Under the pieces are notes generated by a model. It was not told the origin of the DNA. It saw only the letters and a list, made by a program, of their open reading frames with translations, and did no database searches. DNA of 64,000 nucleotides from Agreia sp. VKM Ac-1783 (GTDB taxonomy: Bacteria; Actinomycetota; Actinomycetes; Actinomycetales; Microbacteriaceae): NCBI RefSeq assembly GCF_900177765.1, contig NZ_FXWI01000003.1, positions 620,001 to 684,000 on the forward strand, given 5' to 3'. The translations under genes and the position numbers were made by a program. Shown here piece by piece: positions 37,521 through 56,087 of this stretch (the first letter of the stretch is position 1; every line of letters begins with the position of its first letter).

Positions 37521-38603
37521 ATGACCGTCGACGGCATGGCGGGAGTTCAGGTGAGTGCTGGGTTGATGCGCGTCGAGTGGCATGCGCCGGTGACGCTCCA
37601 TATTCACCCCGATGTCCTCGACCCGAAGGCAAGCCAGCTTCGATCGTCGGCCGACGGTGCCGTGCAGTTGCTGATTGGGGCCGAGGTGTCTGTGCTGGTG
37701 CGGGTGCAGGATGCCGGTGCGCCGGTTTCTGCTCAGATCGGCCAGGTCATCGGGGGTGTCACATCGATAGACCTCGACGACGCGGGCAGCCTCGACGACG
37801 ACACCGTCCTGAAGGCGGGGTCGATCGTCGCTGATGGCGACGCGATCGTCCAGCCGCTGACCCGAACGGGCAACGATGTCGACGACACGATCATCGGCCA
37901 GCCGGCTCTCGTGGCCGCCGAAGGCAGCGAAACCGACGCCGACGATCAGACCATCCTGGGGCAGCCGGCCGCGTTGACCGACGTGATCGACGATCCGGAT
38001 GCCTCCGCCGACACGGTCATCGGCCCTGGTCGACGGCGTCGCGAGAGCCGGCCGGTCGCTCCCGCCCAGGCCCCCGCATCCGCCGTGGCCGGCACACCCC
38101 TCCTGCCGCCCGCACCCCTCCTGCCGCCCGCACTGCCCGCCATCCCAGCCAGCGCGCACGTCAACGCCGGCGGATCCCCGCCGGTCAGCCGACGAACGCG
38201 CATCGAGCCGACCCACGCATCCGGTGCGTCGGTCGCTCTCGCCGTGGCTTTTCCCGACGGGCGCACGGTCGCCCTCGACCGTACCGTCTACGTCGGCCGA
38301 TCCCCGAAGAGCCCGCGCATCACATCCGGCGTCGTACCCGAGCTCGTGGCCGTGCCTTCGCCACGACGAGAGGTCAGCTCGACCCACGTCGAGATTCAGC
38401 AGGAAGGTCGCGCCGTCGTGGTGCGCGATCTCGGGTCGACGAACGGAACTCGGGTGCGGGTTCCGGGCGCGGCGCCGTCGATGCTCAGCCCCGGAGCGAG
38501 CCGTGTGGTCGCCACCGGAACGCTGCTCGATCTGGGTGACGACGTGGTGCTCGAGATCGTCGAGCGACCGGGCGCGGTTCCTACCGAGGGCGCGTCGTGG
38601 TGA
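37521..38603 (+). CDS. FHA-domain protein with four DxT[IV] repeats
   Basis: 360 residues (ATG 37536 is an alternative start). Residues 1-80 form an unrecognised beta-rich domain. Residues 88-170 are acidic and contain four similar sites: T95 in DDDTVLKAG, T123 in DDTIIGQPA, T144 in DQTILGQPA, T165 in ADTVIGPGR, the last three exactly 21 residues apart. These look like Thr phosphorylation sites for the neighbouring kinase. A Pro-rich linker follows (an 18-nt tandem duplication, 38096-38131). Residues 255-345 are an FHA domain (GRSPKS, SSTHVEI, GSTNGT) that binds phosphothreonine. Its last codons overlap the PP2C start. It probably acts as a cytosolic phospho-switch. Confidence 0.85.
   Translation: MTVDGMAGVQVSAGLMRVEWHAPVTLHIHPDVLDPKASQLRSSADGAVQLLIGAEVSVLVRVQDAGAPVSAQIGQVIGGVTSIDLDDAGSLDDDTVLKAGSIVADGDAIVQPLTRTGNDVDDTIIGQPALVAAEGSETDADDQTILGQPAALTDVIDDPDASADTVIGPGRRRRESRPVAPAQAPASAVAGTPLLPPAPLLPPALPAIPASAHVNAGGSPPVSRRTRIEPTHASGASVALAVAFPDGRTVALDRTVYVGRSPKSPRITSGVVPELVAVPSPRREVSSTHVEIQQEGRAVVVRDLGSTNGTRVRVPGAAPSMLSPGASRVVATGTLLDLGDDVVLEIVERPGAVPTEGASW
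38096..38131 (+). repeat. 18-nt tandem duplication in the FHA gene
   Basis: ACCCCTCCTGCCGCCCGC occurs twice head to tail, encoding the Pro-rich linker repeat before the FHA domain. The unit is a multiple of 3, so the frame is kept; copy number may vary between strains. Confidence 0.8.
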
Positions 38604-39424
38604 GCGTCGCCGCGTCGACCGTCGGCGCCCGCACCGTCGCGCTTCCTGACGGCGTCGGCCAGCTCGGCCTCTCGTGGGCGGCTCAGACGAACAAGGGTCT
38701 GAAACGCGCCGGCAACCAGGACAGCTACCTCGCGGCGGCGCCCGTCTTCGCCGTGGCCGACGGCATGGGAGGCCACGCGGCGGGCGACGAGGCGAGCGCC
38801 GCGGTCGTCGCCCGACTGGCCCAGTACATCTCGGGCGACTTCGCGTCGACCGACGAGATCGCTCAGGCGCTGCGCCAGGCGAGCGACGACATCGGAGAGA
38901 TCGGCGTCGGCCACGACAGACCCGGGTCCGGCACGACGGTCACCGGAATCGCCCTCACCATTCAGGGGCAGCGGCCGTATTGGGCCGTCTTCAACATCGG
39001 CGACTCGCGGGTGTATTCGCTCCTCGATGGTGTTCTGACCCAGCTGACGGTCGATCACTCCGCCGTGCAGGCGATGGTCGACGCGGGCAGCATCACCGCT
39101 ATCGAGGCGGAGTCGCACCCGAACCGGAACATCATTACGCGAGCCGTGGGCTTCGGCAAGAACCCGGTTCCCGATCTCTGGTTCATTCCCGTCGCGGAGG
39201 GCGCTCGGCTCCTGATCTGCTCCGACGGGTTGACGAAAGAGGTCGATACCGACCTCATCCGTCTGCTCCTGTCGGAGGCGATCGATGCCGATGATGCAGC
39301 CGGCCTGCTGCTGGAGGCTGCACTCGCCGCGGGTGGCCGGGACAACGTGACGACCGTGGTCGTGGAGGTCGTCAGAAGCGACGCCGTCGACGACGCCGAC
39401 ACGACCCTTCCCCGCTTCGACTGA
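38597..39424 (+). CDS. PP2C-type Ser/Thr protein phosphatase
   Basis: 275 residues. GTG 38597 (GAGGG 6 nt upstream) or GTG 38600; either overlaps the end of the FHA gene, so translation is coupled. PP2C motifs: AGNQDSYL, VADGMGGHAAGDEAS (metal-binding Asp), GSGTTVTGIAL, NIGDSRVYSLLDG, LTVDHSAVQ, ITRAVGFG, LLICSDGLTKEVD, GGRDNVTTVVVEV. All metal-ligand Asp positions appear present. There is no membrane segment, unlike mycobacterial PstP, so it is cytosolic (PrpC-like). It should reverse the phosphorylation made by the next gene. Confidence 0.93.
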   Translation: MVSVAASTVGARTVALPDGVGQLGLSWAAQTNKGLKRAGNQDSYLAAAPVFAVADGMGGHAAGDEASAAVVARLAQYISGDFASTDEIAQALRQASDDIGEIGVGHDRPGSGTTVTGIALTIQGQRPYWAVFNIGDSRVYSLLDGVLTQLTVDHSAVQAMVDAGSITAIEAESHPNRNIITRAVGFGKNPVPDLWFIPVAEGARLLICSDGLTKEVDTDLIRLLLSEAIDADDAAGLLLEAALAAGGRDNVTTVVVEVVRSDAVDDADTTLPRFD

Positions 39425-39574
39425 ACCGTGTCACCCTGATTGGGGGCACCCCGTCTGGCGCTCGAGACACACGATGCCGGTGATGGCATATGTACAGTGG
39501 AGGGACGGCTTTCGGGGGACAGTCAAAAAGGTTTTCGCCCCGCCCCACGTAACCGTCTCGAAAGAGGAACGCCC

Positions 39575-41002
39575 ATGGCTCGCAGGCTGCCGTCACAGCC
39601 GCCGGTTCTCGCGGGCTACACGCATCTGCGGGCGCTGGGCAAGGGTGGCTTCGCCGACGTCTTCCTCTATGAACAGGCACTGCCCCGAGCCGACGTCGCC
39701 GTCAAGGTCCTCCTGCCGGGCGTGGCCAGCAACAGCGTGCGCGCGATGTTCCTCTCCGAGGCCAATCTGATGTCGCAACTCGCGACGCATCCATCGGTCG
39801 TCACGGTGCACGCCGCGAGCATCGCGCCCGACGGTCGCCCCTACCTCGTGATGGAATACTGCCCCTCGTCGTTCGGCACGCGGTACAAGACCGAACGCAT
39901 CCCCCTGGCGGAGGTGTTGACGGCGGGCGTCAAGATCGGCAGTGCGCTCGAGAGCGCCCACCGGCTCGGCTTTCTGCACCGCGACATCAAGCCGTCGAAC
40001 ATCCTCATCACGCAGTACAACCATCCCGTGCTCGCCGACTTCGGCATCGCTGCCACCGTGGCCGAGGCCGATCGCGACGAGGCCGAGGGCATGAGCGTGC
40101 CCTGGTCGGCGCCCGAGGTGCTGCAGTCCGAGACGCGGGGAACGGTGCGCAGCGAGGTCTGGTCGCTGGCCGCGACGCTCTACTCCATGCTCGCCGGTCG
40201 AAGCCCGTTCGAGTATCCGGGCAAGAGCAACACTCGCGACGATCTGCAGCGCCGCATCGTCGGCCGCGATCGGGTGCCGCCCACGGGTCGACCGGATGTT
40301 CCGGCCGAGCTCGAGACGCTCCTCGCGTCGTGCATGTCGAAGAGCCCGGCAGCGCGGCCGGCGAGCGTTCTCGAAGTGGTTCGTGGGCTGCAGCTGATCG
40401 AATCGACGCTCTCGCTACCGCAGACGTCGGCCGACATCTCGAATGAAGCGTTTGCCAGCGGGGCGCAGCGCGCGGCGGCCCCAGCGCCGCTGACGAGAGC
40501 GGCGCAGGGCGGCGTCTCGGTGCGTGCCGCAGGCGAGGCTCGCGTGCGGCACCGCGGACGTCGGAGCGACACCGTGCACGAGTCGACCGATTCGAGCGTC
40601 ACCGTCATCAGGCAGGCGACCACCTCACGCGCCAAGCCGCTGCGCAGGCCCGGGGTGATCGCCGCCGTCGTCGGCAGCGCGGTGGTGCTCGTGGCGGCGA
40701 TCGTCGCCGCGGTCGCGCTCGTCTTGGGCGCGCTCAACACCTCGATCCCCGTCGTCAGCGACATCCGAGCGAGCGCCGGTGCCGACGCCATCGTCTTCTC
40801 CTGGCGCGACCCCGGGCTCGCAGACGGTGACCTCTACGTGATCCGTGGCGCAGACGGGTCTTCGTCTACCCAGTCGGCCAACGAATTCACGGTTCAGGCA
40901 GACCCGCTCGTTCCCGACTGCATCACCGTGCGCGTCTTGCGAGACGGCCGACTCGGCGATCCGTCGGCGCAGAAGTGCTCATCGGCTGGAGACGGCGGAT
41001 GA
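39575..41002 (+). CDS. Transmembrane Ser/Thr protein kinase with FN3-like external domain
   Basis: 475 residues from ATG 39575 (GAGGA upstream). Kinase domain about 12-280: LGKGGFADVF (Gly loop), Lys44 in VAVKVL, Glu in SEANLM, catalytic Asp137 in HRDIKPSN, Asp155 in DFG, APE in SAPEVL. A basic Ser/Thr linker follows, then one membrane helix (about 361-385). The external part (about 386-475) has no PASTA repeat; it reads as a single fibronectin-III-like domain (IVFSWRDP, LYVIRGADG, CITVRVLRDG). Its stop overlaps the next gene's ATG (ATGA). It corresponds to Pkb2 of the bifidobacterial PFNA cluster. Ligand unknown. Confidence 0.92.
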   Translation: MARRLPSQPPVLAGYTHLRALGKGGFADVFLYEQALPRADVAVKVLLPGVASNSVRAMFLSEANLMSQLATHPSVVTVHAASIAPDGRPYLVMEYCPSSFGTRYKTERIPLAEVLTAGVKIGSALESAHRLGFLHRDIKPSNILITQYNHPVLADFGIAATVAEADRDEAEGMSVPWSAPEVLQSETRGTVRSEVWSLAATLYSMLAGRSPFEYPGKSNTRDDLQRRIVGRDRVPPTGRPDVPAELETLLASCMSKSPAARPASVLEVVRGLQLIESTLSLPQTSADISNEAFASGAQRAAAPAPLTRAAQGGVSVRAAGEARVRHRGRRSDTVHESTDSSVTVIRQATTSRAKPLRRPGVIAAVVGSAVVLVAAIVAAVALVLGALNTSIPVVSDIRASAGADAIVFSWRDPGLADGDLYVIRGADGSSSTQSANEFTVQADPLVPDCITVRVLRDGRLGDPSAQKCSSAGDGG

Positions 41003-44000
41003 TCTTCCGCTGGCTGCGCGCGCACGCGTCTCAGGCGATCTCGACGGCGAGTGTCCTCGTGGTCACCGCCGTGGTGCTGGCGATCGCGCTCGCGTCGACG
41101 GGGTACACCGAACAAAAGGTCGAACTCGACGACGCATCGGTCTGGGTGACGAACGGAGCGCGTCAGGTGGTGGGCCGCGCGAACACCGATGTGTTCGAAC
41201 TCAACACGGTCGTGCCGAGCGAAGGCAGTGACATCGATGTGCTGCAGCGGGGCGATACCGTGCTCGCCCACAATCACACGAGCAATACCCTCCAGATCAT
41301 CGATCCGGCCTCGTCGCAGGTCACCTCCACGATTCCGCTGCCGGCGGGCGACCCCGACGTGATGCTGGCCGACGGTCAGATCGTCATCCACTCGGGGACC
41401 ACGGGCGAGGTGTGGGCGGTGCGCCAGGCCAATCTCGATTCGTTCGACGAATCGGCGAAGCCGCTGCTGAGCCTCGATGCGGGCAGCGTGGTGGCCGTCG
41501 ACGACTCCGGCACGCTGGTGGGTTTCGATCGTCAATCGCGACGACTCGTGACGGCAGATCTCTCCTCCGGTGCCGAGCCCCGATCCGAGGCGGTCACCGG
41601 CCTCGATCTGCAAGCCACCGACGAGCTCCAGATCACGCGCACCGGCGGCGTCGCATCCGTTCTCGATGCCACGAGCCGGCAGCTGGTGGTAGACGGGCGG
41701 CCGATAGACCTGTCCGACCGTGTCACCTCGTCGGCCGAGCTTCGGCTCGCCGCGCCGAGCACACGGAGCGGGGCGCTATTGCTGGCCCACACGGGCGGGC
41801 TGCTCGGCATCGACACGTCGTCGGGTGCGGTCGAGCAGTTGGTCGAGGCCGCCGACGGCAGACCGACACAGCCGCTCGTCGACGATGGATGCGCGTACGC
41901 GGCGTGGGCCGACGGCTCGACCTGGCAGCGTTGCGATTCGTCGGATGCGGTGCGCGGCCAGCTGGCCGGGGTCTCGGCTGACGACGATCTCGCGTTTCGC
42001 AGCAACGGACGCTACGTGGTTCTCAATGATCGCGGCGCGGGACGCGTGTGGGCCGTGCAGCACGAGAACAGGCTCATCGACAACTGGGATCAGCTGATCG
42101 ACAAAGACGACGACCCCCAGCAAGACGACGAGATCGACGACGACACACCGCCCGAACTCGTCAAGGATCAACAGCCGCCCGTAGCGACCCCCGACGATTT
42201 CGGAGCCCGTCCCGGTGTGTCGAGCATTCTTCCCGTGCTGCTGAACGACTACGACCCGAACGGCGATGTCCTCTCGATCACAGCGACCTCCGAGATCGAT
42301 CCCGCCATCGCGCGAGTCGATCTCGTCAGCACGGCTCAACAACTCCAGGTCACACTGACGCCGCAGGCATCCGGAACCTTCTCGTTCGACTACAGCATCT
42401 CCGACGGGAGGGGCGGCACGGCGTCGAACACCGTGAACGTGACCGTGCGCGCGCCCGGCGAGAACTCGGCGCCCGTTCAGGCGAGAACGACGAAGGCGAG
42501 CGTGGCCGCCGGGGGAGTCTTCACAGCGAATGTGCTCGGCGACTGGTACGACCCTGACGGCGACCCCATGTATCTCGAGGACGCGCAGGCGGGTGAGCCC
42601 GACCGCGTCTCTTTCTCGCCCGCTGGTGAACTCGACTTCCGTGACGGCGGCACGGTGGCGGCCGAGAAGGACATCGGGCTGCAGGTCTCCGACTTCACCC
42701 TGTCGGGCACGGGGCAGCTGCGGGTCACCGTCCTGGATCCCGGTACCGTTCCTCTCCTCACGGAGGGATTCCTGGTGCAGGGCTACACCGGTCAGGAACT
42801 GCAGATCTCGCCGCTGGCGCACGTGCGCGGAGGTACCGGCGCGATCCGCCTCAGCACCGTCGCCGACTATCCCGAGACCAAGATCACCCCGAACTACGCC
42901 AAGGGCACGTTCCGCTTTCTGGCGCAGAACGCCGGGGTGCACTATCTGTCGTACTCGGTAACAGACGCCGCGCAGCAGACCGCCACCGGAATCATCCGCG
43001 TTGACATCGCCGCCGCGCCGGATGCCTCGACGAAGCCGATCACGGTGCCGACGGTGGCCTTCCTCTACCAGCAGCAGACAGACACCGTCGACGTGCTCGC
43101 CTCCGACATCGACCCGGCCGGGGGCGTTCTGAGCATCGCGGGCGTGGCCGGTGTGCCGTCGTCATCCGGCGTCGTCGTCGAGATCATCGAGCACCGCCTC
43201 CTGCGTGTTCGGCTGAATAACCCGCTCGATGCACCCGTCACCTTCACCTACACGGCCACGAACGGGTTCTCGAGCGCCGAGGGAACCGTCACGATCTACC
43301 AGGTGCCCGAGCCTAAGAGGCTGCAGGCACCGGTGGCGGTGGCGGACAGCGTCTCGGTGCGCGTGGGCCAGGTCATCGACATCCCTGTGGTGGCCAACGA
43401 CGAGCATCCGAACCGCAAGCCGCTCGTGCTCGATCCCGTGCTCGTGCAGAACGTGCCGTCCGGCGGCGGGCTGCTCTTCGCATCCGGCAACCGCCTGCGC
43501 TATCTTGCGCCCGATGAGCCGGGCGATTACACGGCCATCTACCGCCTGGGAACGACGGCCGACGTGCAGTTCGATACGGCCCAGGTGACGATCGCGGTCA
43601 GAGAGGCCGACGCCGCGACGAATACAGCCCCGGTGCCGCCCACCCTGTCGGGCCGCGTCCTCGCCGGTGACAGCGTGACGATCCCGGTGCCGTTGGGCGA
43701 CATGGATGCCGATGGCGATTCGGTGAGGCTCGTGGGCGCCGCGTCGAATCCGGCGCAGGGCAGCGTGATGGTCTCGGGCGACGGATTGACCTACACGGCG
43801 GGCGCTGCGTCACAGGGCACCGACACCTTCTCATACGAGGTGGTCGACAGCCTCGGGGCGCGCGCGACGGGGACGGTGCGGGTGGGTATCAGCCCGAGCT
43901 TCGACACGGCAAGCCTTCCCGTCGCGGTCGACGACGTCGTCGTCACGACGCCGGGTACCGCCATCACCGTGCGCGTGCTCGAGAATGACTCGGACCCGAA

Positions 44001-46851
44001 CGCGAGTCCGCTCAAGGTCGTCGGTGCGGAGTCCGCCGTCGCCGACGTAGACGTGCCCAAGTCGGCCGACCGCATCACGTTCCACGCGCCGAAGACAGAG
44101 GGCGACTACGCGGTGCTCTACACGATTCAGAACGACGGCGGGCAACAGGCATCCGCCTGGCTTCGCGTTCGGGTCGATGCCGGGGCGCCGCCGGTGCGGC
44201 CGGAGGCTGACGACACCGTGCTCAACCTGACAGACATCCAGGGTCGTGACGATGTCACCGTCGATGTGATGCGCAAGGTCTTCTACGCCGAAGGAGACGT
44301 CGGCTCGCTCAGACTGTCGTTGGTGCCGGGATACGACACGACGGCATCCGTCCTGCCGAACAATCGGGTGCGCGTCGCGGTGCAGCAGAAGAGCCAGATC
44401 ATTCCGTTCGTCGTCTCCACAGCCGACGATGACAGCGTCAGCGCTTCCGCGTTCATCTGGGTACCCGGTCTCGAGGATGCTCTGCCCGAGTTGCGCACCA
44501 CGGCCAAGCCCCTGCAGGTGCTGAGTGGCGACACCCTGTCGATCAACATCAACGATTATGTGGTCGCCGCGGGTGGCAGGCAGGTTCGTCTGACCGATGA
44601 GGCCACGGTCAAGGCCAGCAACGCCGACGGAACGAACCTCGTGGTCGACCCTCGCACCCTGCGGTTCACGAGTCGCGACGGGTACTGGGGCCCGGCATCG
44701 CTGTCATTCGAGGTGACCGATGGGTCGGGCCCTGACGACCCGAACGGACACAAGGCCGTGATCGTGCTCGCCATCACCGTCACTCCTCGAGACAACCAGC
44801 CTCCCGTCTTCTCCGGTGCGCAGCTCGGTCTGCAGCCGGGTGATGACCGAGTGATCGAGCTGCGTGATCTCACGAAGTACCCGTATCCGGCCGACATGGA
44901 TCAGCTCGTCTACGAGGTGACCTCTCAGCCGGGCTCGGGATTCTCGGCCTCGGTGTCGGGTTCACAACTCAGGGTCGCCGCCGCCGCGGACGCCAAAGTC
45001 GGCAGCGCATCCGAGCTCACCGTGGGTGTGCGCGACGCGAAGAACGAGGGCAAAGCCGGCATCGTCAAACTCTCGGAGGTCACGTCTACCCGCCCGCTCG
45101 TGAGCCCGGGGGCCGACAGCCTCACGATCCGTCGCGGTGGAACGGCCACCATCCCTGTGCTCGAGAATGACACGGCAACCAATCCGTTCCCCGACACGCC
45201 CCTGTCGGTCGGGGCCGTGCAGGGCGCCGTTCCGGCCGGTGTGCAGGTCACCCCGAGCGCCGACAAGAGCACGCTCTCGGTCACGGTGTCGCCTCAGGTC
45301 GACCTCAAGGCCACCGGACAGGTCACGATGCAGTACCAGGTCGTCGACGCGACGAAGGATCCGACGCGCGCCACCTGGGGGACTGTCACGATCACGATCG
45401 TGGACGTACCAGACCAACCCGCTGCGCCGGTGCTCTCCGGCGCAGGGTTCGTCAACGGCCAGCTCAGTGTGTCGGCGGCGCCACTTCCGTACCCCAACGG
45501 GGCCCCGATCACGTCGTTCATCATTCGCAGCGACGACAACGGCGGATATTCGAAGGACTGCGGAGCCTCGGCAACCTGCCTCCTCAACGATCTTCAGGCG
45601 GGTAAGAACTACACGTTCTACTCGATCGCCGTCAACGAGTACGGAGAATCGTCCCCGAGCGCCCGGAGCGTTCCGATGCGCAGCGACTACATTCCCGCGC
45701 CGCCGCAGCAGGTCACGATCGCGCGCGAGGCCGCCGACCAGGCTCAGTCGAACGAGGGGTACGTCGTCGTGTCGTGGAAGTCGATTCCCGATCCGAACCC
45801 CGGCAGTGCGGTGCAGCGAGTGCGGGTGCAGATCGGGGGATCGACGATCGAGGTCGACAGGTCGGCCACCTCGCTGCGATACAAGGGAGTTCCCGGCACC
45901 GAGTACTCGGCCCAGGTGTGGGCCGAGAACGGAGCCGACACGCTCTACCCGGGTCAGATTCCCTGGAACAGGTCGAGTTCGGGCTCGGTCACAGCTGCTG
46001 GTCGTCCCGTGGCGACCGCGGTCACGGCGACGATCGTCGACGATGCCGGATCGGTGCGCGTCGACTGGTCGGCGTTCGGCGCCAACGGTGGATCCGGCGT
46101 GACGTACAACGTGGTGCGCTACGGGGCGCAGGCTTCTGTGCCCAACTGCAGCCAGGCATCCGGCACGCGCGCTGTCTCGCCCGGCGTCATCGTGCCGTCA
46201 GCCGATGGCGACGTCGGCTCTCGCTTCGTCTACGTGGTCTACGCCGACAACGGCTGGGGATGCACGTCGGCTCAGACCGGGAGCATTCGAGTGCTGATCC
46301 CCCCGGCTCCGCCGACGGTGGCTCTGAAATATCAAAGCCCCAGCGGCGGCATCTACGGTGTTGCAGTAGATACTGCCGCGCCGATCACGCTGCCGAACAC
46401 CAACACGTCGGAATACACCATCCAGGTCTCCGGGGGAGGCGCGGTCACGAAGAACTCGCCGCTCACGGGATCCGGTCCGTGGACCTTCACCTCGTGCATC
46501 ACGAGCGAGGGAACCACTCGATGCAGCGAGCCCGGAGCGCCCACGAACGCGCTCACCCCCGTGAACGCGAACGCGGCGGTCGCGTCGTGTGTGGCCGGAG
46601 GCGCGGTTTCGGCTGCGCTTGAGAGTCCTGGATCGGTCTCGTGGACCTTCCAGTACTCCTTCAGATCGTCGCTCGCCGGCATCCCCGGAATCTGGTCGGC
46701 GTGGTCAGACGACCCTACGGTGCCGACGCTGAGCACTCTGGCCGACTCCCAAGAGGTGGTCGTTCGAACGATCGGCAATGGGGGAGACTTTACGAGCGGT
46801 ACCGACCAGAACGACCTGCGACAGCGTGGCAGCGGCAAGAAGTGCGGCTGA
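40999..46851 (+). CDS. Giant membrane-anchored Ig-like/FN3 surface protein
   Basis: 1950 residues from ATG 40999, which overlaps the kinase stop. A single N-terminal membrane helix (about 13-34) with a short basic cytosolic end anchors it. Residues about 45-370 form a beta-propeller-like region. About ten bacterial Ig/cadherin-like (tandem-95 type) domains follow, several with the VLxNDxDPxGDxLxI calcium-like pattern (VLLNDYDPNGDVLSI, VLGDWYDPDGDPMYL, VRVLENDSDPNAS, IPVLENDTATN). The C-terminal part has FN3 domains (from about 1475). No LPXTG or C-terminal anchor. It equals the FN3 protein of the PFNA cluster. Adhesion or cell-contact sensing is likely; kinase coupling is inferred from the gene overlap. 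Confidence 0.9.
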   Translation: MIFRWLRAHASQAISTASVLVVTAVVLAIALASTGYTEQKVELDDASVWVTNGARQVVGRANTDVFELNTVVPSEGSDIDVLQRGDTVLAHNHTSNTLQIIDPASSQVTSTIPLPAGDPDVMLADGQIVIHSGTTGEVWAVRQANLDSFDESAKPLLSLDAGSVVAVDDSGTLVGFDRQSRRLVTADLSSGAEPRSEAVTGLDLQATDELQITRTGGVASVLDATSRQLVVDGRPIDLSDRVTSSAELRLAAPSTRSGALLLAHTGGLLGIDTSSGAVEQLVEAADGRPTQPLVDDGCAYAAWADGSTWQRCDSSDAVRGQLAGVSADDDLAFRSNGRYVVLNDRGAGRVWAVQHENRLIDNWDQLIDKDDDPQQDDEIDDDTPPELVKDQQPPVATPDDFGARPGVSSILPVLLNDYDPNGDVLSITATSEIDPAIARVDLVSTAQQLQVTLTPQASGTFSFDYSISDGRGGTASNTVNVTVRAPGENSAPVQARTTKASVAAGGVFTANVLGDWYDPDGDPMYLEDAQAGEPDRVSFSPAGELDFRDGGTVAAEKDIGLQVSDFTLSGTGQLRVTVLDPGTVPLLTEGFLVQGYTGQELQISPLAHVRGGTGAIRLSTVADYPETKITPNYAKGTFRFLAQNAGVHYLSYSVTDAAQQTATGIIRVDIAAAPDASTKPITVPTVAFLYQQQTDTVDVLASDIDPAGGVLSIAGVAGVPSSSGVVVEIIEHRLLRVRLNNPLDAPVTFTYTATNGFSSAEGTVTIYQVPEPKRLQAPVAVADSVSVRVGQVIDIPVVANDEHPNRKPLVLDPVLVQNVPSGGGLLFASGNRLRYLAPDEPGDYTAIYRLGTTADVQFDTAQVTIAVREADAATNTAPVPPTLSGRVLAGDSVTIPVPLGDMDADGDSVRLVGAASNPAQGSVMVSGDGLTYTAGAASQGTDTFSYEVVDSLGARATGTVRVGISPSFDTASLPVAVDDVVVTTPGTAITVRVLENDSDPNASPLKVVGAESAVADVDVPKSADRITFHAPKTEGDYAVLYTIQNDGGQQASAWLRVRVDAGAPPVRPEADDTVLNLTDIQGRDDVTVDVMRKVFYAEGDVGSLRLSLVPGYDTTASVLPNNRVRVAVQQKSQIIPFVVSTADDDSVSASAFIWVPGLEDALPELRTTAKPLQVLSGDTLSININDYVVAAGGRQVRLTDEATVKASNADGTNLVVDPRTLRFTSRDGYWGPASLSFEVTDGSGPDDPNGHKAVIVLAITVTPRDNQPPVFSGAQLGLQPGDDRVIELRDLTKYPYPADMDQLVYEVTSQPGSGFSASVSGSQLRVAAAADAKVGSASELTVGVRDAKNEGKAGIVKLSEVTSTRPLVSPGADSLTIRRGGTATIPVLENDTATNPFPDTPLSVGAVQGAVPAGVQVTPSADKSTLSVTVSPQVDLKATGQVTMQYQVVDATKDPTRATWGTVTITIVDVPDQPAAPVLSGAGFVNGQLSVSAAPLPYPNGAPITSFIIRSDDNGGYSKDCGASATCLLNDLQAGKNYTFYSIAVNEYGESSPSARSVPMRSDYIPAPPQQVTIAREAADQAQSNEGYVVVSWKSIPDPNPGSAVQRVRVQIGGSTIEVDRSATSLRYKGVPGTEYSAQVWAENGADTLYPGQIPWNRSSSGSVTAAGRPVATAVTATIVDDAGSVRVDWSAFGANGGSGVTYNVVRYGAQASVPNCSQASGTRAVSPGVIVPSADGDVGSRFVYVVYADNGWGCTSAQTGSIRVLIPPAPPTVALKYQSPSGGIYGVAVDTAAPITLPNTNTSEYTIQVSGGGAVTKNSPLTGSGPWTFTSCITSEGTTRCSEPGAPTNALTPVNANAAVASCVAGGAVSAALESPGSVSWTFQYSFRSSLAGIPGIWSAWSDDPTVPTLSTLADSQEVVVRTIGNGGDFTSGTDQNDLRQRGSGKKCG

Positions 46852-46884: not shown

Positions 46885-47859
46885 ATGACCATGACCCGCG
46901 AACAGGCCGTCTGGTTCGCCGATGTATTCGGCCGGCTGGTCTCGAACGTCGAGCGCGTGGTCTTCGGCAAGACCCACGTCGTGAAGCTGGCCTTCACCAC
47001 GCTGTTGAGCGAGGGGCATCTGCTTCTCGAGGACTCACCGGGAACGGGCAAGACGTCGCTGGCGAGAGCGATGGCCCAGACGGTGCAGGGAACGTCGAGT
47101 CGCATCCAGTTCACCCCCGACCTGCTGCCGGGCGATGTCACCGGCATGAGCATCTACGACCAGAAGCAGGGCGTCTTCGAATTCCATCGAGGACCCATCT
47201 TCGCGTCGATCGTTCTGGCCGACGAGATCAACCGGGCAAGTCCCAAGACCCAGTCCGCGCTCCTCGAGGTCATGGAGGAAGGACGCGTCACGATCGACGG
47301 CGCCACGCACGGGGTGGGCCGGCCGTTCTTGGTCGTGGCGACGCAGAACCCGATCGAGCAGGCGGGCACCTACCGGTTGCCCGAAGCTCAGCTCGACCGC
47401 TTCATGATGAAGGCGTCGCTCGGCTACCCCGATCGATCGTCGACCATCGCGATTCTCGAAGGAGCGGCGACGCGCACGCACGACAGCACCATCCCGGCCG
47501 TGGTGACGAGCGCCAACATCGTCGAGATGGCCGATCTCGCCCGCACGGTGCATGTCGGGCACGCGGTGCTCGACTACGTCGCCGACATCGTGGATGCGAC
47601 GCGCGGCGCCGTCGAGGTGCGTCTCGGTGCGAGCGTGCGCGGCGCCGTGGCCCTCGTGCGCACCTCGAAGACGTGGGCTGCGGCCCAGGGCCGGCACTTT
47701 GTGACGCCCGACGATGTGAAGACGCTCGCGGAGAATGTGCTCGCTCATCGCCTCGTGCTCGACCCGGAGGCGGAGTTCGACGGTGTCACCGCCTCCAGCG
47801 TCATCGGACAGATCCTGCTCGAGACCCCACCGCCCACCGACAGGGCGCAGGCGGGGTGA
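46885..47859 (+). CDS. MoxR-family AAA+ ATPase
   Basis: 324 residues from ATG 46885 (AGGAG 7 nt upstream). Walker A EDSPGTGKTSLARA, Walker B VLADEINRASPKTQSALLEVM, sensor 1 VATQNPIEQAGTYRLPEAQLDRF, and the C-terminal sensor-2 domain. This is the standard MoxR group that acts as a chaperone with DUF58 and TPR/VWA proteins to assemble or activate surface or multi-subunit complexes. The next gene (DUF58) overlaps its stop as GTGA, so they are translationally coupled. Likely client: the Ig-like protein or the membrane partners in this cluster. Confidence 0.95.
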   Translation: MTMTREQAVWFADVFGRLVSNVERVVFGKTHVVKLAFTTLLSEGHLLLEDSPGTGKTSLARAMAQTVQGTSSRIQFTPDLLPGDVTGMSIYDQKQGVFEFHRGPIFASIVLADEINRASPKTQSALLEVMEEGRVTIDGATHGVGRPFLVVATQNPIEQAGTYRLPEAQLDRFMMKASLGYPDRSSTIAILEGAATRTHDSTIPAVVTSANIVEMADLARTVHVGHAVLDYVADIVDATRGAVEVRLGASVRGAVALVRTSKTWAAAQGRHFVTPDDVKTLAENVLAHRLVLDPEAEFDGVTASSVIGQILLETPPPTDRAQAG

Positions 47860-49346
47860 GTGACGAAGCGCGGCGCGTCGCCGGGGCGGGCGGCTCCGGC
47901 GCGTCGGAGCGCCCGCGGCGCGAGGTACGCGCCCGCAGAACGGCGTTCGGCCGTCGAGCGGCGGCGCGCGCACGCGAGCTGGCGGCATCCGGAGCGACCG
48001 AATCGCAGCGCGATCTCACGGGCCTGACCGGCACCCACGCGTACACCAGAACGCGCGCGGCGGCCGGTCCTGCCGACGACGTGAGGCTGACCGCGCGTCT
48101 GCGGATGCGCCGCGCCGCACGAACGGTCCGAAGCTACGCGGAGCGCGCAGGGCGATGGATCTCGGCGACCGTCACGGGCCTCGGACTATCTATCGCCGTG
48201 GTGGTCGTGATCGCCGCGCTCTTCGGTTACCTGCTCGGGTGGATCGAACTCGTGGTGGTCGCGTTCACGGGCTTCGCGCTCCTCGTCCTCGGGGTCTTCT
48301 TCCTGCTCGGCCGTAACTCGTACGACATCGGACTCTCGATCGACCGAGATCGCGTTGTGGTCGGCGAGGCCGCGCGCGCGAGTCTGACTGTTCGCAACCC
48401 CAGTCGCTTCCGTCTCCCTCCCGTGAAATCGGAGGTACCCGTCGGCCGGGGCCTGGCCGAGTTCTATCTCGGAGGAATCGCCCGGGGCGGCCGGACGAGC
48501 CGAGACTTCCCGGTTCCGACGTCGCGGCGCGGAGTGGTGAGGATCGGACCCGTACGGACGGTCAGAGCAGATCCCGTCGGCCTTCTTCGTCGCGAATACG
48601 TGTGGACCTCGCACCTCGACCTGTTCGTGCATCCCGTGACCGTGCCCATCCCGGCGACCAGCACGGGTCTCATTCGCGACCTCGAGGGCAACCCGACGCG
48701 CGACCTCACCGACTCCGATGTCTCGTTCCACGCCCTGCGCGAATACGCGCCGGGCGACGATCGTCGGCACATCCACTGGAAGAGCACGGCCAGAACCGGC
48801 CAGCTCATGGTGCGTCAATTCGAAGAGACTCGGCGGAGTCATCTCGTGATCGCACTGTCGCTGGCCAGCGCCGACTACCACTCCGAGGAAGAGTTCGAGC
48901 TCGCCGTGAGCGTGGCCGGGTCGATCGGAATCCGAGCCATCCGCGACGCGCGCGACGTCTCTGTCCTCGCCAGCGACGAGACACCCGAGTTCGCGCGCCG
49001 GGCAGTGAAGACCCCCAGGCGACTCAGCTCACTCAGCCGGTCGAGGCTTCTCGACGACCTCGCGCACGTCGAGCACAGCCCGCTCGCGTCGGGGCTCGTC
49101 ACACTCGCGCGGGGCAGCGCCGAATCGGTCTCCGGGGCCTCCGTGGCCATCATCGTCTGCGGATCCGAGCCGACGGCGGCACACCTGCGCAGCGCGTCCG
49201 CCGCGTTCCCGCCCGGCGTGGAGGTGCTCGCGGTCGTCTGCAATCCCGGCATCGTTCCCAGCCTTCGCCGGGTCGGCGAGCTGCGCGTGCTCACGATCGG
49301 ATACCTCGACGACGTGCAGAAGGCCCTCGCGAGGGCTGCATCGTGA
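47856..49346 (+). CDS. DUF58 domain membrane protein
   Basis: 496 residues from GTG 47856, overlapping the MoxR stop. The first about 90 residues are basic and cytosolic. Two membrane helices lie at about 105-155 (VTGLGLSIAVVVVIAALFGYLLGW, VAFTGFALLVLGVFFLLG). The remainder contains the DUF58 signature region YAPGDDRRHIHWKSTARTGQ LMVRQFEE (split here), in a von-Willebrand-like alpha/beta domain. DUF58 proteins are genetic partners of MoxR ATPases in many bacteria. The stop overlaps the start of the transglutaminase-like gene (TGATG). Confidence 0.92.
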   Translation: MSDEARRVAGAGGSGASERPRREVRARRTAFGRRAAARARELAASGATESQRDLTGLTGTHAYTRTRAAAGPADDVRLTARLRMRRAARTVRSYAERAGRWISATVTGLGLSIAVVVVIAALFGYLLGWIELVVVAFTGFALLVLGVFFLLGRNSYDIGLSIDRDRVVVGEAARASLTVRNPSRFRLPPVKSEVPVGRGLAEFYLGGIARGGRTSRDFPVPTSRRGVVRIGPVRTVRADPVGLLRREYVWTSHLDLFVHPVTVPIPATSTGLIRDLEGNPTRDLTDSDVSFHALREYAPGDDRRHIHWKSTARTGQLMVRQFEETRRSHLVIALSLASADYHSEEEFELAVSVAGSIGIRAIRDARDVSVLASDETPEFARRAVKTPRRLSSLSRSRLLDDLAHVEHSPLASGLVTLARGSAESVSGASVAIIVCGSEPTAAHLRSASAAFPPGVEVLAVVCNPGIVPSLRRVGELRVLTIGYLDDVQKALARAAS

Positions 49347-51658
49347 TGAGACCAGCGACCGTCGACCGGCGCTCCGCCGCGGCCGACACCCTCTTCTTCG
49401 TGGTGCTGATGGCTGTGGCCGCGTCGACGCTCTGGCCCATCTATCAGACACCACGGCTCATCGTTCTCGCCGCGGCGGCACTCATCCTCGGCGTCGTCGT
49501 CGCCTGGACGGGCGCACTGCTGCGGTGGCCGGGATACGGTGTCTTCGGCGCCTCCATCGCCGTCTATCTGGTCTTCGGTGTCGCGCTCGCGGTTCCGGGG
49601 CGGACCATCTTCGGTGTCCTGCCGAGTGTCGACGGTCTGCGCGATCTCATCACCGGAACCGCCCTGGGATGGAAGCAACTCGTCACGGTCGACCTCCCGG
49701 TCGCGAGCTATCAATCCCTGCTCGCTCCCGCGCTCGTGCTTCTGCTCGGCGGCACGGTGCTCGGTCTGTCGATCGTGCTGCGCACGCGGCGAAGCGACGC
49801 GGCCGTACTCGTTCCGATCGTCGTCGCCGTCGTCGGCATCGCGCTCGGCCCGGAGGTCGCGTGGTCTCCCTTTGTCCCGGCGATCGCGTTTCTCGTCGTG
49901 GCCATCGCGTGGATGACGTGGCGCGCGCGACGCACCCGACGACGCTCCATCGCGCTGCTCGCGGGTCAGACCGAATCGGGTGCTCGAGCCTCGGCGACTT
50001 TCGCCGAACGACGCGGGGCGCTGCGCCCCGTGCTGGCGGCCGCACTCGTCCTCTCTATCGCCGTGGTCGCCGGGGTGTCGGCCGCCGGGGTGCTCGCCCC
50101 TCAGGGATCGCGGGACGTCGTGCGGGCAGCGGTCGAGCGGCCTTTCGACCCCCGCGACTATGCGAGTCCGCTCAGCGGATTCCGCTCGTACTGGAGTGCC
50201 GGGACTGCCGATGCGCCGCTCTTCGACGTCGAGGGTCTCCCCGATGGCGCGCGCATCCGGCTCGCCGCACTCGACACCTACAACGGTGTCGTCTACAGCG
50301 TGGGAGACGAGGCGAACGACAGCGCGTCGGGCTTCTTCGCGCGGGTGCCATCGATGATCGACCGAACGGGTGAACCGGGGATGCCCGTGTCGGCGTCGAT
50401 CGTCGTGGCCGGATATCGAGGGGTCTGGCTCCCGACGGTCGGCGATGTGGAGCGGGTCTCCTTCGATGGATCGCGCGCATCGCAGCTCGCCGACTCGTTC
50501 TACTACAACCGCGCGTCGAACACGGCGGCCGTGTTGGGGGGAGTCCGCGAAGGAGACAGCTACACGATCGAGGCGATCGTGCCGTCGATGCCCGATGACG
50601 ACGAGCTCAAGGCGGCGCAGCCCGGCACCGCGTCCGTGCCGCAGCCGAGCAACGTTCCCGATGTGATCGCGACGGCGGTGGCCGCCGACACCCAGGGGCT
50701 GGACGCGCCCGGCGAGAAGCTGGCCGCCGTCGTCGAGGCGATCAAGGCATCCGGATACATCAGCCACGGCACCGACGACGGCCGGCCCTACAGCCGGTCG
50801 GGTCATGCCGCCGATCGCATTACCCAGCTGTTGACCGCGCCGGTGATGCTGGGCGATGACGAGCAGTATGCCGCAGCGGTCGCACTCATGGCCGACGAGC
50901 TGGGCTTTCCGGCGAGGGTCGTCATGGGTTTCGCGCCCCCGGCAGGAACCAGCGTGGTGACAGGCTCGGATGTCTCGGCCTGGGTCGAGGTCGATCTGGC
51001 CGGATACGGGTGGGTGCCGATCGACCCGACACCCGAGGACCGGCCGATTCCCGAGAAGCTGCCGGACACGAAGCAGCAGGTCTCGAGACCCCAGGTGGTC
51101 ATTCCACCGCCACCCGCCGCCGACGATACGCCGGTCGAGCCAAACCGGCCCGAGGCCGACGAGACGAAGGCGAACGACCCCGATGCGTTCTGGCCCCTCG
51201 TGCTGGGCATCGCGCGCGTCGTAGGAATCGTCGCTCTGGCGCTCGTCATCGTCTTGGCCCCGGCGATCGTCATCGCGAGTGCCAAAGCGGCACGTCGACG
51301 ACGTCGCCGACGTCGGTCGGATGCTGCCTCCCGGATCGCCGGCGGATGGCAGGAGATCGTCGATGCCGGCCTCGACTACGGCTACGACGTGCCGGCGACA
51401 GCGACCAGACTCGAGGCGGCCCGCGTCGTCGGCGCTGTCGACCTGGAGACATTCGCCCGGCGGGCCGACACGGCGGTCTTCGCCGAGGAGCGGATCGAGA
51501 CGCGCGAAGCCGACCAGTACTGGTCAGACCTGGCCACGCTCCGGGCTGCATGGGCCAAGGAATACACTCTGTGGCAACGCATTCGTGCGGCAGTTCGGCT
51601 CCGCTCCCTGTCGGCACACGCACGAGTGTCTAGCCGGAGGGGAGAGCGCCGTGGCTGA
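49346..51658 (+). CDS. Transglutaminase-like membrane protein lacking catalytic Cys and His
   Basis: 770 residues from ATG 49346 (GTG 49343 is possible). The N-terminal part has six or so membrane helices (about 15-235). An external region follows with the TgpA-like transglutaminase core near residues 490-565. In active members the core has C-E-Q, then H-A-W and D-P-T-P. Here the Cys is Asp505 (LGDDEQYAAA), the His is Ser544 (DVSAWVEVDL) and only Asp560 (IDPTPED) remains, so the cysteine-protease-like triad is gone. A Pro-rich linker, another membrane helix near 615-635 and a basic cytosolic tail follow. It corresponds to Tgm of the PFNA cluster. A binding or scaffolding role is inferred. Confidence 0.88.
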   Translation: MRPATVDRRSAAADTLFFVVLMAVAASTLWPIYQTPRLIVLAAAALILGVVVAWTGALLRWPGYGVFGASIAVYLVFGVALAVPGRTIFGVLPSVDGLRDLITGTALGWKQLVTVDLPVASYQSLLAPALVLLLGGTVLGLSIVLRTRRSDAAVLVPIVVAVVGIALGPEVAWSPFVPAIAFLVVAIAWMTWRARRTRRRSIALLAGQTESGARASATFAERRGALRPVLAAALVLSIAVVAGVSAAGVLAPQGSRDVVRAAVERPFDPRDYASPLSGFRSYWSAGTADAPLFDVEGLPDGARIRLAALDTYNGVVYSVGDEANDSASGFFARVPSMIDRTGEPGMPVSASIVVAGYRGVWLPTVGDVERVSFDGSRASQLADSFYYNRASNTAAVLGGVREGDSYTIEAIVPSMPDDDELKAAQPGTASVPQPSNVPDVIATAVAADTQGLDAPGEKLAAVVEAIKASGYISHGTDDGRPYSRSGHAADRITQLLTAPVMLGDDEQYAAAVALMADELGFPARVVMGFAPPAGTSVVTGSDVSAWVEVDLAGYGWVPIDPTPEDRPIPEKLPDTKQQVSRPQVVIPPPPAADDTPVEPNRPEADETKANDPDAFWPLVLGIARVVGIVALALVIVLAPAIVIASAKAARRRRRRRRSDAASRIAGGWQEIVDAGLDYGYDVPATATRLEAARVVGAVDLETFARRADTAVFAEERIETREADQYWSDLATLRAAWAKEYTLWQRIRAAVRLRSLSAHARVSSRRGERRG

Positions 51659-52097
51659 GCCTGGACTTCCTCCATACACCGGCGCGTCGGGCACGGGCCT
51701 CTGGGATGCGCGGTCTCCGAGGATCCCCTACATCGAGCCGTCGGCGCCGACGCGGGAGCGAGTGGAGCCAGACCCGTCTTTCGTCCTGGAGTTCAGCACC
51801 GGACAGGTCGTCACGGTCACGGGTCGCGGAGTCATCGGTCGGGCGCCGCGCGATGCGGGCGACGACGCATCGCTTCAGCTGGTGACCGTCGACGACCCGG
51901 GGAGGTCGGTCTCGAAGGTGCACGCCCGTTTCGACGTCGATGCTCACGGTCTGTGGATCGAGGATCTCGGATCGGGCAACGGAACGGTGGTCGTGCAGCC
52001 GGGAGGGTCGCCGGTCGCGGTTCACCCCGGCGAGAGGACCCCGGTCGGGGTCGGCGCCGTCGTACGTCTCGGTCGTCAGTCGTTCAGCGTGCGCTGA
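51651..52097 (+). CDS. FHA-domain protein, second of the cluster
   Basis: 148 residues from GTG 51651, which overlaps the end of the upstream gene; GGAGG stands about 11 nt before it. A 40-residue N-terminal extension leads into an FHA domain: GRAPRD (phosphate-binding Arg), SVSKVHARF (Ser/His), DLGSGNGTVVV (Asn-Gly). It should bind a phosphothreonine site, perhaps on the kinase, on the first FHA protein or on the basic tail of the upstream membrane protein. There is no membrane segment. The run of overlaps stops here; the next gene is 82 nt downstream. Confidence 0.9.
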   Translation: MAEPGLPPYTGASGTGLWDARSPRIPYIEPSAPTRERVEPDPSFVLEFSTGQVVTVTGRGVIGRAPRDAGDDASLQLVTVDDPGRSVSKVHARFDVDAHGLWIEDLGSGNGTVVVQPGGSPVAVHPGERTPVGVGAVVRLGRQSFSVR

Positions 52098-52179: not shown

Positions 52180-53139
52180 ATGAGCACCAGCAACGATCCC
52201 GACCGCGACCCGCTTTCCCCGGACAGCCCCGAGAGCAGCCGGCGAGAGTCGCACACCGACTCCACCCGGGAGTTCGTCGTGGCAGAACCCTCGAGCGTCG
52301 AGCCCGGCACTCTCGAGCCTGTCGTCGTGCGCACATCCGCCGAGCCCGATCGGGAGGCCCAGGCGTCGCAGGGGTGGACGAGTCCGGCGGAGAACGGCCC
52401 GACGGAGGATCCGAATCCGTACGTCGTCCGCACAACGGTGCCTCCGATGAACCCGCACACCACGGGCGCTCCGCTCGCGCAGCAGCCCGAGAGTTCCGCC
52501 GCGCCGGCCGCTCCGGCTGCGGCCCCGGGCATTCCCGGCGGTGAGATCTACGCGCAGGCACCGACGCCGGTGTACGTCGCGCGCCCCGAGCAGCCCGCCC
52601 GCCGAGGCAATCGACTGTTCGGCACCGTCATAGCCCTGTTGGGAACGGTCGCCTTCGCCGTGGTGTACGCCGCAGTGGCCTCGATCTTCTTCGCGTTCAA
52701 CCCCGCGGTCGAGAACGCTCTCTCGACACTCACGCGATTCCTCGTGAACTTCGCCTTCATCGTTCCGGTTGTCTTCTTCGCCATCGCGTTCATCCTCCTC
52801 GTGCTGATCCTCAACCGTGCCGGATGGTGGGCGTACATCATCGGCGGCTTCGTCGTGGCCGCGGTCGTCTACGCGGGCTCCATCGTCGGCGCATACCTCG
52901 CTGTGCAGGGCTGGACGATGAGCCAGGAGTCCCTCGGAGAGTTCCTTCGTTCGCTTCTGATGGATCCGCTGCCGATCGTCGCCGCGGTCGTCGCTCGCGA
53001 GGTCTCCGTCTGGACAGGCGCTTGGGTCGCCTCCCGTGGCCGCAAGGTCAAGGAACGCAACCAGGCTGCACGCGAGGAGTACGACAAGACGATGGCCGAG
53101 GCGCCGGCAACGGCGTCACAGGGCTCACCGGCCTGGTAG
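52180..53139 (+). CDS. Membrane protein with long disordered N-terminus
   Basis: 319 residues. The first about 145 residues are disordered, rich in Ser, Pro, Glu and Thr. Four hydrophobic segments follow (about 147-172, 188-210, 216-240 and 255-285), with a charged tail. It is not recognised beyond resemblance to actinobacterial cluster-associated membrane proteins with Pro-rich N-termini. GGAGG stands 12 nt before the ATG. It follows the FHA gene and probably belongs to the same transcript. The Thr/Ser-rich N-terminus could be a kinase target, which is inference. Confidence 0.65.
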   Translation: MSTSNDPDRDPLSPDSPESSRRESHTDSTREFVVAEPSSVEPGTLEPVVVRTSAEPDREAQASQGWTSPAENGPTEDPNPYVVRTTVPPMNPHTTGAPLAQQPESSAAPAAPAAAPGIPGGEIYAQAPTPVYVARPEQPARRGNRLFGTVIALLGTVAFAVVYAAVASIFFAFNPAVENALSTLTRFLVNFAFIVPVVFFAIAFILLVLILNRAGWWAYIIGGFVVAAVVYAGSIVGAYLAVQGWTMSQESLGEFLRSLLMDPLPIVAAVVAREVSVWTGAWVASRGRKVKERNQAAREEYDKTMAEAPATASQGSPAW

Positions 53140-53702: not shown

Positions 53703-54920
53703 ATGTCAGACAACAGTCTTCCCCCTGTGCCCCAGGGTGCGTCGTCCGTTCCGCCGCTGCCTCCCGTACCTCCTGTCTCCGCACCGCCCGTTCCTCCCGT
53801 GCAGGGCTATCCCGGATCGCCGCAGTTCCCGTCGCAGCCCCAGTTCGCTCAGCCGCAGTTCGCTCAGCCGCAGCCGCAGCCGCAGCCGCAGCCGCAGCCG
53901 CAGTTCCAGCCCCAGCCGAGCGCTCGTCGATCGCGCAAGGGTCTGATTATCGGCATCTCCATTGCCGCTGCGGTCGTCATTCTCGGTGGGGCCGGACTGG
54001 CCATCGCCGGAACATCCATCTCGTCGAGCGTCGCACCGGACACGCAGGTGAAGACGTTCCTGCAAGACCTGGTCGACGGCAGAGCAGAATCAGCACTCGA
54101 GGTCATGGGGGAGAAGCCTTCGGGGCTGCTCACCGATGAGGCCTACAACGCCTCGGCCAACCACATCACAGACTTCAGCGTGGGCAAGGTGAAGACGACA
54201 GGCGACACGGCCGTCGTCACGGCCAAGATCAGCCAGGGCGGAACGAGCTACACGCAGGAGTTCGAGCTGCAGAAGGCCGGCAAGACATTCGTCGTCTTCG
54301 ACGTCTGGCAGCTGCAGCCCCTGCCACTCGGTGTGGTGAATGTGCAGGTCCAAGGGCCGGAGGGTCTCGCCGTGCAGGTCGACGGCAACGACGTCGAGGG
54401 CTCCGAATCCGGCCTCCGCGCCTTTCCTGGCGACTACGAGGTGTCGGTGGTCGACGACAGCGACCTCTTCGACGCGGAGCCCGCGACGGCGAACGTCGTC
54501 GGTCTCTCCGACGAGGCTGCGGGAAGCATCGCAACCGCGGCGGTGACCACCACGCTCACCGAGGCAGGCACGGCAGCCGCCCGCGCCGCGGTCGACGCCT
54601 TTGTCGACGGATGCGTGGCGCAGCAGAGTCTTGCACCCACGGGCTGCGGCTTCCAGGCTCGAGCGCAAGACGGTGTCACCTACTCGAATATCCGCTGGAC
54701 GCTCACGGTGAGGCCCACGTACTCGATCGGCGACTGGGCGGGTAACGGCTGGGCCGTCTCGTCGGCGACGGCGGGAACGCTCGACGTCCTCGCCGACTCC
54801 GTCGACAGTGCCGGCCGCTCCGGACCATCGGGCACGAGTCTGCCGAACTACCGACCCGCCGGCACGGTTTCCGTCGTCGACGGAGCGATCACGTTCACCT
54901 CATCGGTGCTGCCGTTCTAG
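53703..54920 (+). CDS. Membrane-anchored protein with Pro/Gln-rich N-terminus
   Basis: 405 residues from ATG 53703 (GAGGAG upstream). The first about 78 residues are Pro/Gln repeats (QPQFAQPQFAQPQPQPQ...), then a basic patch RRSRKG and one membrane helix (about 79-102). The external part has a NTF2/DUF4878-like beginning (VKTFLQDLVDGRAESALEVMGEKPSGLLTDEAY) followed by beta-rich domains to the end. A cytosolic QP-rich tail with an external sensor-like domain resembles many actinobacterial single-pass envelope proteins. It is the last gene before the str promoter. Function unknown. Confidence 0.65.
   Translation: MSDNSLPPVPQGASSVPPLPPVPPVSAPPVPPVQGYPGSPQFPSQPQFAQPQFAQPQPQPQPQPQPQFQPQPSARRSRKGLIIGISIAAAVVILGGAGLAIAGTSISSSVAPDTQVKTFLQDLVDGRAESALEVMGEKPSGLLTDEAYNASANHITDFSVGKVKTTGDTAVVTAKISQGGTSYTQEFELQKAGKTFVVFDVWQLQPLPLGVVNVQVQGPEGLAVQVDGNDVEGSESGLRAFPGDYEVSVVDDSDLFDAEPATANVVGLSDEAAGSIATAAVTTTLTEAGTAAARAAVDAFVDGCVAQQSLAPTGCGFQARAQDGVTYSNIRWTLTVRPTYSIGDWAGNGWAVSSATAGTLDVLADSVDSAGRSGPSGTSLPNYRPAGTVSVVDGAITFTSSVLPF
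53841..53900 (+). repeat. Short tandem repeats encoding the QP tract
   Basis: A 15-nt unit CAGTTCGCTCAGCCG occurs twice (53841-53870), then CAGCCG repeats; counting the overlap, six CAGCCG units span 53865-53900. Units are multiples of 3, so length changes would not shift the frame. Confidence 0.85.
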
Positions 54921-56073: not shown

Positions 56074-56087
56074 TCGCGTGTGCTGGT

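Follow-up and report, generated by a model that had tools for sequence, protein, structure and literature searches.

We analysed a 64,000-nucleotide stretch of the Agreia sp. VKM Ac-1783 genome (contig NZ_FXWI01000003.1, positions 620,001 to 684,000; hereafter the window, in whose numbering all coordinates are given), focusing on a gene that encodes a TgpA-like transglutaminase-fold protein of 770 amino acids. The reading frame runs intact on the + strand from an ATG at 49346 to a stop at 51658 (49346..51658), as initially annotated. Two Pfam domains by which the TgpA family is recognised both scored above their cut-offs, namely TgpA_N (residues 21–408; 49406..50569; E 2.9e-13, 50.0 bits against a cut-off of 30) and Transglut_core (residues 445–561; 50678..51028; E 2.7e-14, 53.8 bits against a cut-off of 23); nothing else in Pfam matched at E up to 0.01, and an NCBIfam scan returned no match. 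Hydropathy analysis with overlapping windows merged predicted seven transmembrane (TM) helices before residue 250 and an eighth at 625–643, with Arg-rich loops on the presumed inner face (positive-inside flanks). This topology would place a domain of about residues 251–614, carrying the transglutaminase fold, outside the membrane and leave a cytoplasmic tail of about 125 residues. An AlphaFold2 (AF2) model had a mean pLDDT of 83.4 and a pTM of 0.53, and its top Foldseek matches were the solved TgpA structures 6g49 (E 4.4e-10) and 6g4h (E 4.8e-10); as modelled, the transglutaminase-like fold is kept. We also weighed Thr687 in the tail as an FHA phosphosite and dropped it, since the AF2 model begins a helix at 688.

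What the protein does not have is the catalytic Cys-His-Asp triad that makes TgpA an enzyme. Cys-bearing TgpA homologues, when aligned, had the Cys of their GYCVHYA motif at column 505, the His of LHSW at 544, and the acidic residue of EPTP at 560, where the window protein reads Asp505 (LGDDEQYAAA; 50858..50860), Ser544 (DVSAW; 50975..50977), and Asp560 (IDPTP; 51023..51025), respectively. A profile of 65 similar rows—the window protein plus 64 relatives at 40–85% identity, picked by similarity from 79 usable sequences (the window, 4 from Agreia, and 74 listed)—had a single match among solved sequences at E up to 0.1, again TgpA (6g49/6g4h, E 1.6e-7), and aligned GFCAHYA of 6g49 with GDxEQYA, HAW with sAW, and DPT with DPT. 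The initial annotation, which had Asp505 and Ser544 standing in for the catalytic Cys and His and Asp560 as the one triad member left, had thus placed the columns correctly. An alternative Cys/His pair elsewhere in the protein, which would have spoken for a displaced active site, was ruled out because the whole protein contains zero cysteines. Since a protein devoid of any cysteine cannot be a thiol enzyme, it is, as judged from its sequence, nearly certain that this one lacks thiol catalysis.

We gathered relatives from the genus, family, order, class, and phylum of the window, plus a set of named genomes (the best 80 of at least 577 confirmed stretches), all of them found by their resemblance to the window protein. 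After merging frames that shared an identical C-terminal end, we aligned only matches above 40 bits, which gave 214 distinct rows: 191 with the motif G-[DN]-x-E-Q (window included; hereafter the clade), 12 with Cys at 505, nine other Cys-less rows, and two partial frames, which were set aside. Because the 191 rows were picked by Asp or Asn at 504 and Glu-Gln at 506–507, their conservation at those columns is circular, that at 505 is not. A further 24 loci came from the phylum search, 23 of which had a transglutaminase-like (TGL) match (17 Cys-bearing, six Cys-less), so that 29 Cys-bearing homologues in total were compared at individual columns. All 29 carried C505, H544, an Asp or Glu at 560, Tyr474, and Tyr or Phe at 504.

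Not one of the 191 rows, which include Microbacteriaceae and Bifidobacterium-like relatives, had a Cys at column 505; this position read D61, A45, Q37, G21, S16, and E11, column 544 read S76, T41, H38, and others, and Asp560 was found in 138. The outside domain as a whole was free of Cys in 174 of the 191. A tree of 106 rows placed all 84 of its G-[DN]-x-E-Q rows (drawn from the 191) on one side of a branch with support 100, and a single Cys/no-Cys change sufficed to separate these and nine further Cys-less rows from 13 Cys rows. A mixture-model tree of 88 rows (30 with Cys and 58 without, among them 43 of the same 84) again needed one change, with support 97. Both trees were quick searches run without bootstrap, from which gain and loss of the Cys are not distinguishable; given the triad of the superfamily, we infer that Cys is the older state and the direction was loss. 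On these alignments and trees, then, the missing Cys marks a whole large clade and is not a recent event. Column 505 itself changed at least 17 times within the 84-row tree and His544 at least four times. Asp505 is a detail of the window species: it occurs in the window alone among the 65 similar rows (A27, Q27, G8, E2, D1), and we therefore rejected it as a conserved replacement. The residue that the relatives do keep is Asp504, one position before the Cys column, in 65/65.

The nine other Cys-less rows (L055, L146, L147, L150, L155, L157, L158, L161, and L162), which we refer to as the sister group, carry the motifs GTSEQFA, GYSEQHA, and GYVEQFA, with Ser at the Cys column in eight of nine and Leu, Val, or Phe at the His column in seven of nine. 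The Trp546 of the S-A-W motif is kept in 181 of the 191 clade rows and replaced by Arg in ten (Curtobacterium loci L122, L123, L128, L129, and L132–L135, plus L013 and L043), so that the old active-site motif is altered there as well.

Beside the drifting column 505 lies a set of fixed residues. Ser473, His474, Ser483, His487, Arg491, Asp504, Glu506, and Gln507 were identical in all 65 similar rows. Ser473-His474 (50762..50767) includes a position that is Tyr in 29/29 Cys-bearing homologues and in 0/191 clade rows; the stretch from His487 to Arg491 (50804..50818) keeps its His in 189/191 and its Arg in 191/191; and Asp504 (50855..50857) is Tyr or Phe in 29/29 Cys-bearing homologues. Across the clade, column 504 read D178 and N13, Asp or Asn here being part of the selection, and Asp474 accompanied Asn504 in 12 of the 13 rows with the latter. 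The simplest reading of residues that stay fixed next to a column that does not is a cleft that is catalytically dead but guarded on one side. In line with this, the ratio of nonsynonymous to synonymous substitution rates (dN/dS) of the core (residues 441–570) was 0.095–0.198 against six relatives and below the whole-protein value in all six; the core is not the lowest part everywhere, the C-terminal part being lower against L007 and L057. The sequence comparisons thus support purifying selection that maintains a pseudoenzyme core. Of the initial proposal, the pseudoenzyme and its selective maintenance both stood up; the idea that this gene itself "has lost" its catalytic residues fell, as the replacement is clade-wide. 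The further suggestion, that the protein binds a peptide or wall substrate and exchanges signals with its MoxR/DUF58/kinase partners, would fit the gene neighbourhood.

The gene sits within a row of closely spaced genes, all on the + strand and assigned by Pfam, so that the signalling-cluster position initially described was borne out both by domain matches and by comparison of loci. Upstream lie genes for an FHA-domain protein (37521..38603), a PP2C phosphatase (38597..39424), a Ser/Thr protein kinase (39440..41002, start uncertain), a giant surface protein of 1958 amino acids (40975..46851) with a predicted TM anchor and beta-propeller, Ig/cadherin-like repeats, and a weak FN3 match, a MoxR AAA+ ATPase (46885..47859), and a DUF58 protein (47859..49346, start uncertain) whose stop codon shares bases with the ATG of the TgpA-like gene. 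Directly downstream follows a second FHA-domain protein (51651..52097, start uncertain). The N-terminal part of the giant protein (41002–42354), for which we relied on structure prediction and Foldseek, was predicted to be a membrane-anchored beta-propeller, with the YVTN propeller 1l0q as the best match and BamB among further ones. After the downstream FHA gene come a membrane-protein-like product (52180–53139) and a protein opening with long P/Q-rich repeats (53703–54920), neither of which had a Pfam match at E up to 0.01. The cluster is flanked by what we take to be RNA polymerase beta/beta′ genes (29208–36623) and rpsL, rpsG, fusA, and tuf (55229–59617).

The company of the gene differs between the clade and the Cys-bearing loci. 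Among clade loci of at least 12 kb, the giant Ig-repeat protein was present at 119 of 128 and a kinase, PP2C, or FHA gene at 108 of 128; the order giant Ig protein–MoxR–DUF58–TGL–FHA was found in 72 of the 118 clade loci that had just one TGL frame. The 12 Cys loci, from actinobacterial homologues, had MoxR and DUF58 in 11—genes that also lie directly upstream in the window—and Ig-repeat, kinase, PP2C, or FHA genes in none. A Pfam scan of 19 flanking frames from five of these Cys loci, some of which may not be genes, likewise revealed no kinase, FHA, PP2C, or Ig domain. Neighbours were detected with references from the window, so that distant relatives could be missed; earlier loci were screened at a threshold of 1e-5 and the Cys loci at 1e-4 (hence no more strictly); flanks were 10 kb for named records and about 6–8 kb for others, and loci were sorted by manner of retrieval. 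The tally omitted loci shorter than 12 kb and the phosphoketolase loci L228–L244, and kept the G016 loci with broken frames (L049, L050). Three loci were counted apart (L053, with Cys and none of the extra genes; L055, Cys-less with a kinase; L054, with no TGL match), and among the 12 Cys loci L254 had no MoxR or DUF58 match and L256 no TGL match to the window reference.

The genome of the window strain holds all these versions at once. A second cluster (L036/L002, C4:127230-147000) encodes a giant Ig protein, MoxR, DUF58, a Tgm-like protein, FHA, PP2C, and a kinase, its Tgm-like paralogue being 38% identical to the window protein and reading D505/H544/D560. A third locus (L001/L256) carries a catalytic-looking TgpA with the motif GYCVHFA, together with MoxR and DUF58.

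Among known proteins, TgpA of Pseudomonas aeruginosa (PA2873; 6g49/6g4h) is the best match by both fold and profile, and shares TgpA_N, Transglut_core, and an outside domain between TM helices. According to excerpts of PMC3507681, it possesses the triad, and its transglutaminase activity has been measured; the window's clade differs from it in lacking the Cys of the column and, for the most part, the His, and in carrying other residues at 474 and 504.

Among the closest known systems is the PFNA cluster of Bifidobacterium, which has the same order of kinase, FN3/Ig protein, MoxR, DUF58, and Tgm (encoded by tgm), as far as the excerpts of PMC6803598 and PMC8430577 go. The window cluster has these genes in this order and is a PFNA-type cluster. 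The same excerpts mention phosphatase and FHA genes in some species, report that the kinase Pkb2 phosphorylates the MoxR protein, and call Tgm a transglutaminase and "presumably a cysteine protease" (PMC6803598, PMC8430577). Our Bifidobacterium-like relatives (family f4) belong to the Cys-less clade, L193 and L194 by tree and L188–L199 plus L032 by motif; all 13 of the latter read Ser505 and either Tyr or His at 560, and none has His544. One genome of this family (G314) encodes a phosphoketolase identical at 361 of 365 positions, counted from the alignment, to 8io6, with 3ai7 scoring equally, both of which we take to be B. longum enzymes. In contrast to the enzymatic Tgm of the papers, the B. 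longum-like copy in that genome (L192) reads S505/A544/Y560; unlike it, the window protein has Asp560, as do most of its closer relatives. A sequence search of PDB with a relative from genus g21 of this family found nothing at E up to 1, and in the parts of the open-licence PMC literature covered we found no report of Tgm or the clade being inactive, which is a weak negative.

Dead transglutaminases at membranes or in surface systems have precedents. RloB is described, in the excerpts of PMC12239564 and PMC12096838, as a transglutaminase that is inactive, sits on seven TM helices, and has a reported genetic function. It has in common with the window protein, whose topology is predicted and whose helices are a hydropathy count, a dead transglutaminase fold outside the cytoplasmic membrane and seven TM helices; in its operon it is accompanied by genes for an aspartic protease and an ATP-grasp protein as opposed to MoxR, DUF58, kinase, and FHA, and neither type of neighbour appeared among the ten window proteins scanned with Pfam, two of which had no match at all. 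The RloB kind has a Pfam model of its own (PF14400), which the window protein did not match at E up to 0.01. The inactive transglutaminase domains of polymorphic toxins, which have likewise shed one or more triad residues, occasionally stand beside bacterial Ig domains and were proposed to be peptide-binding anchors, according to excerpts of PMC3482391. They are N-terminal parts of RHS-repeat toxins, whereas the window protein is a separate polytopic protein without a toxin-domain match. LapG links to the transglutaminase superfamily as well. In LapG/LapA, a transglutaminase-like domain acts, under control from within the cell, on a giant surface adhesin, and therein lies the likeness; LapG, however, is an active protease, while the window domain is dead, and any effect it has on its giant neighbour is putative. 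MoxR-vWA systems are outlined in excerpts of PMC7159879; their ternary form comprises a MoxR of the bpMoxR kind, a vWA protein, and a beta-propeller protein. In the window, the propeller is part of the giant protein, the MoxR matched bpMoxR (E 3.4e-9) far more weakly than AAA_3, and DUF58 is present with no vWA match at E up to 0.01.

Taken as a whole, the window protein is probably, if by no means securely, a non-catalytic membrane receptor or holder derived from a TgpA-type transglutaminase. Seven TM helices would bear the outside transglutaminase-like domain that has no nucleophile, and the eighth would lead to the cytoplasmic tail. By the old active site stands the conserved polar set of Ser473, His474, and Asp504, with His487, Arg491, Glu506, and Gln507 nearby in sequence, so a pocket may lie near residues 473, 474, and 504. 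The dead cleft would bind a peptide-like ligand and hold it instead of cutting or crosslinking it, the likeliest ligand being part of the giant beta-propeller/Ig-repeat protein, whose gene lies three genes upstream, or else a wall peptide. We place the giant protein first among the candidates because it is a companion of the clade that was not detected next to the catalytic form. The tail or the TM bundle may then signal binding to the DUF58/MoxR pair, and this pair could in turn be tuned by the kinase, phosphatase, and FHA proteins of the cluster.

Several observations weigh against such a receptor or holder. His487 and Arg491 occur in nine and three of the 29 Cys-bearing homologues, respectively, and, with such Cys-bearing carriers present elsewhere in the phylum, we no longer regard the two residues as inventions of the dead clade. 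The sister group reads Y4, F2, V2, and E1 at 474 and T7 and Y2 at 504, thus retaining Tyr/Phe in six of nine and two of nine; because of this, the change at 474 and 504 belongs to the window's clade and is not tied to Cys loss, and we dropped it as a companion of that loss. The 474/504 swap amounts to three independent pairs on supported branches, about one of them in the same direction, which is not significant, and covariation (ranked 48 of 8778 by corrected mutual information) was rejected as proof of contact. Twenty of the 128 clade loci had no kinase, PP2C, or FHA match and nine no Ig-repeat match within the fetched flank. Finally, at eight sister Cys-less loci Ig-repeat matches numbered zero and a kinase was found in only four, from which it follows that being catalytically dead does not by itself bring Ig and kinase company.

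A more ambitious version of the receptor would extend to the whole group: Actinobacteria would have remade a wall transglutaminase as a receptor, with the Cys lost once and residues 474 and 504 (a His-Asp or Asp-Asn pair) forming a new, specific site to grip the cluster's own beta-propeller/Ig-repeat fibre, so that the entire PFNA sensing system, gut bifidobacteria included, would rely on a dead enzyme as the gauge linking fibre and membrane to MoxR/DUF58 and Ser/Thr phosphorylation. We consider this rather improbable, and less likely than the plain receptor or holder. Its odds are lowered somewhat by the sister Cys-less group, which has in common with the clade neither the change at 474 nor the Ig-repeat gene.

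Of the competing explanations, the most serious—though unlikely in our view—is that the protein is a purely structural scaffold, its dead domain packing within a membrane complex with DUF58/MoxR and the giant surface protein and holding no ligand in the cleft. Clade-specific conservation indeed extends beyond the core, with R256, R260, G366, K647, D708, F712, and W726 present in at least 93% of the clade and rare or absent in the 12 Cys-bearing rows, and a site that tolerates Asn504 and a varied 474 would suit a scaffold. Yet Ser473, His474, His487, Arg491, and Asp504 would not be expected to stay fixed in 65/65 similar rows while 505 drifts if that side of the cleft had no role. More doubtful still is a changed chemistry, in which His474, His487, and Asp504, or D505-H544-D560 in part of the clade, would form a new hydrolase or metal site. 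Cys-bearing homologues do have Tyr and Tyr/Phe at the positions taken here by His and Asp, and His544 occurs exclusively with Asp505 (38/38), giving D-H-D in 28 of 191 rows including the window's own paralogue. However, the window protein itself has no His544, that residue needs only four changes in the 84-row tree, so its pairing with 505 may reflect descent, and a general acid or nucleophile would hardly permit Asn504 in 13 of 191 rows or a variable 474. The view that the protein still is a cysteine-type transglutaminase or protease, as its above-cut-off Transglut_core match and the excerpted wording of the PFNA papers for Tgm would have it (PMC6803598, PMC8430577), can be set aside with near certainty, the sequence having already refuted thiol chemistry: the protein is free of Cys, and the column lacks it in all 191 rows. 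Equally negligible is a decaying pseudogene or recent single-lineage mutation, for which the replacement of two of three triad residues might speak but which the intact frame, the low dN/dS, and a column without Cys in all 191 clade members already refute.

A non-catalytic receptor or holder would matter because annotation and discussion alike treat the window protein and its relatives, Tgm of the bifidobacterial PFNA operon among them, as transglutaminases or cysteine proteases, and that operon has been proposed to help sense host immune signals. The window strain offers a natural contrast within one genome, between a triad-intact MoxR-DUF58-TgpA locus without detected kinase or Ig-repeat genes and two Cys-less phosphosignalling clusters. 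Should the clade prove catalytically dead, attempts to find its substrates or crosslinks would fail, and questions of binding and interaction would take their place.

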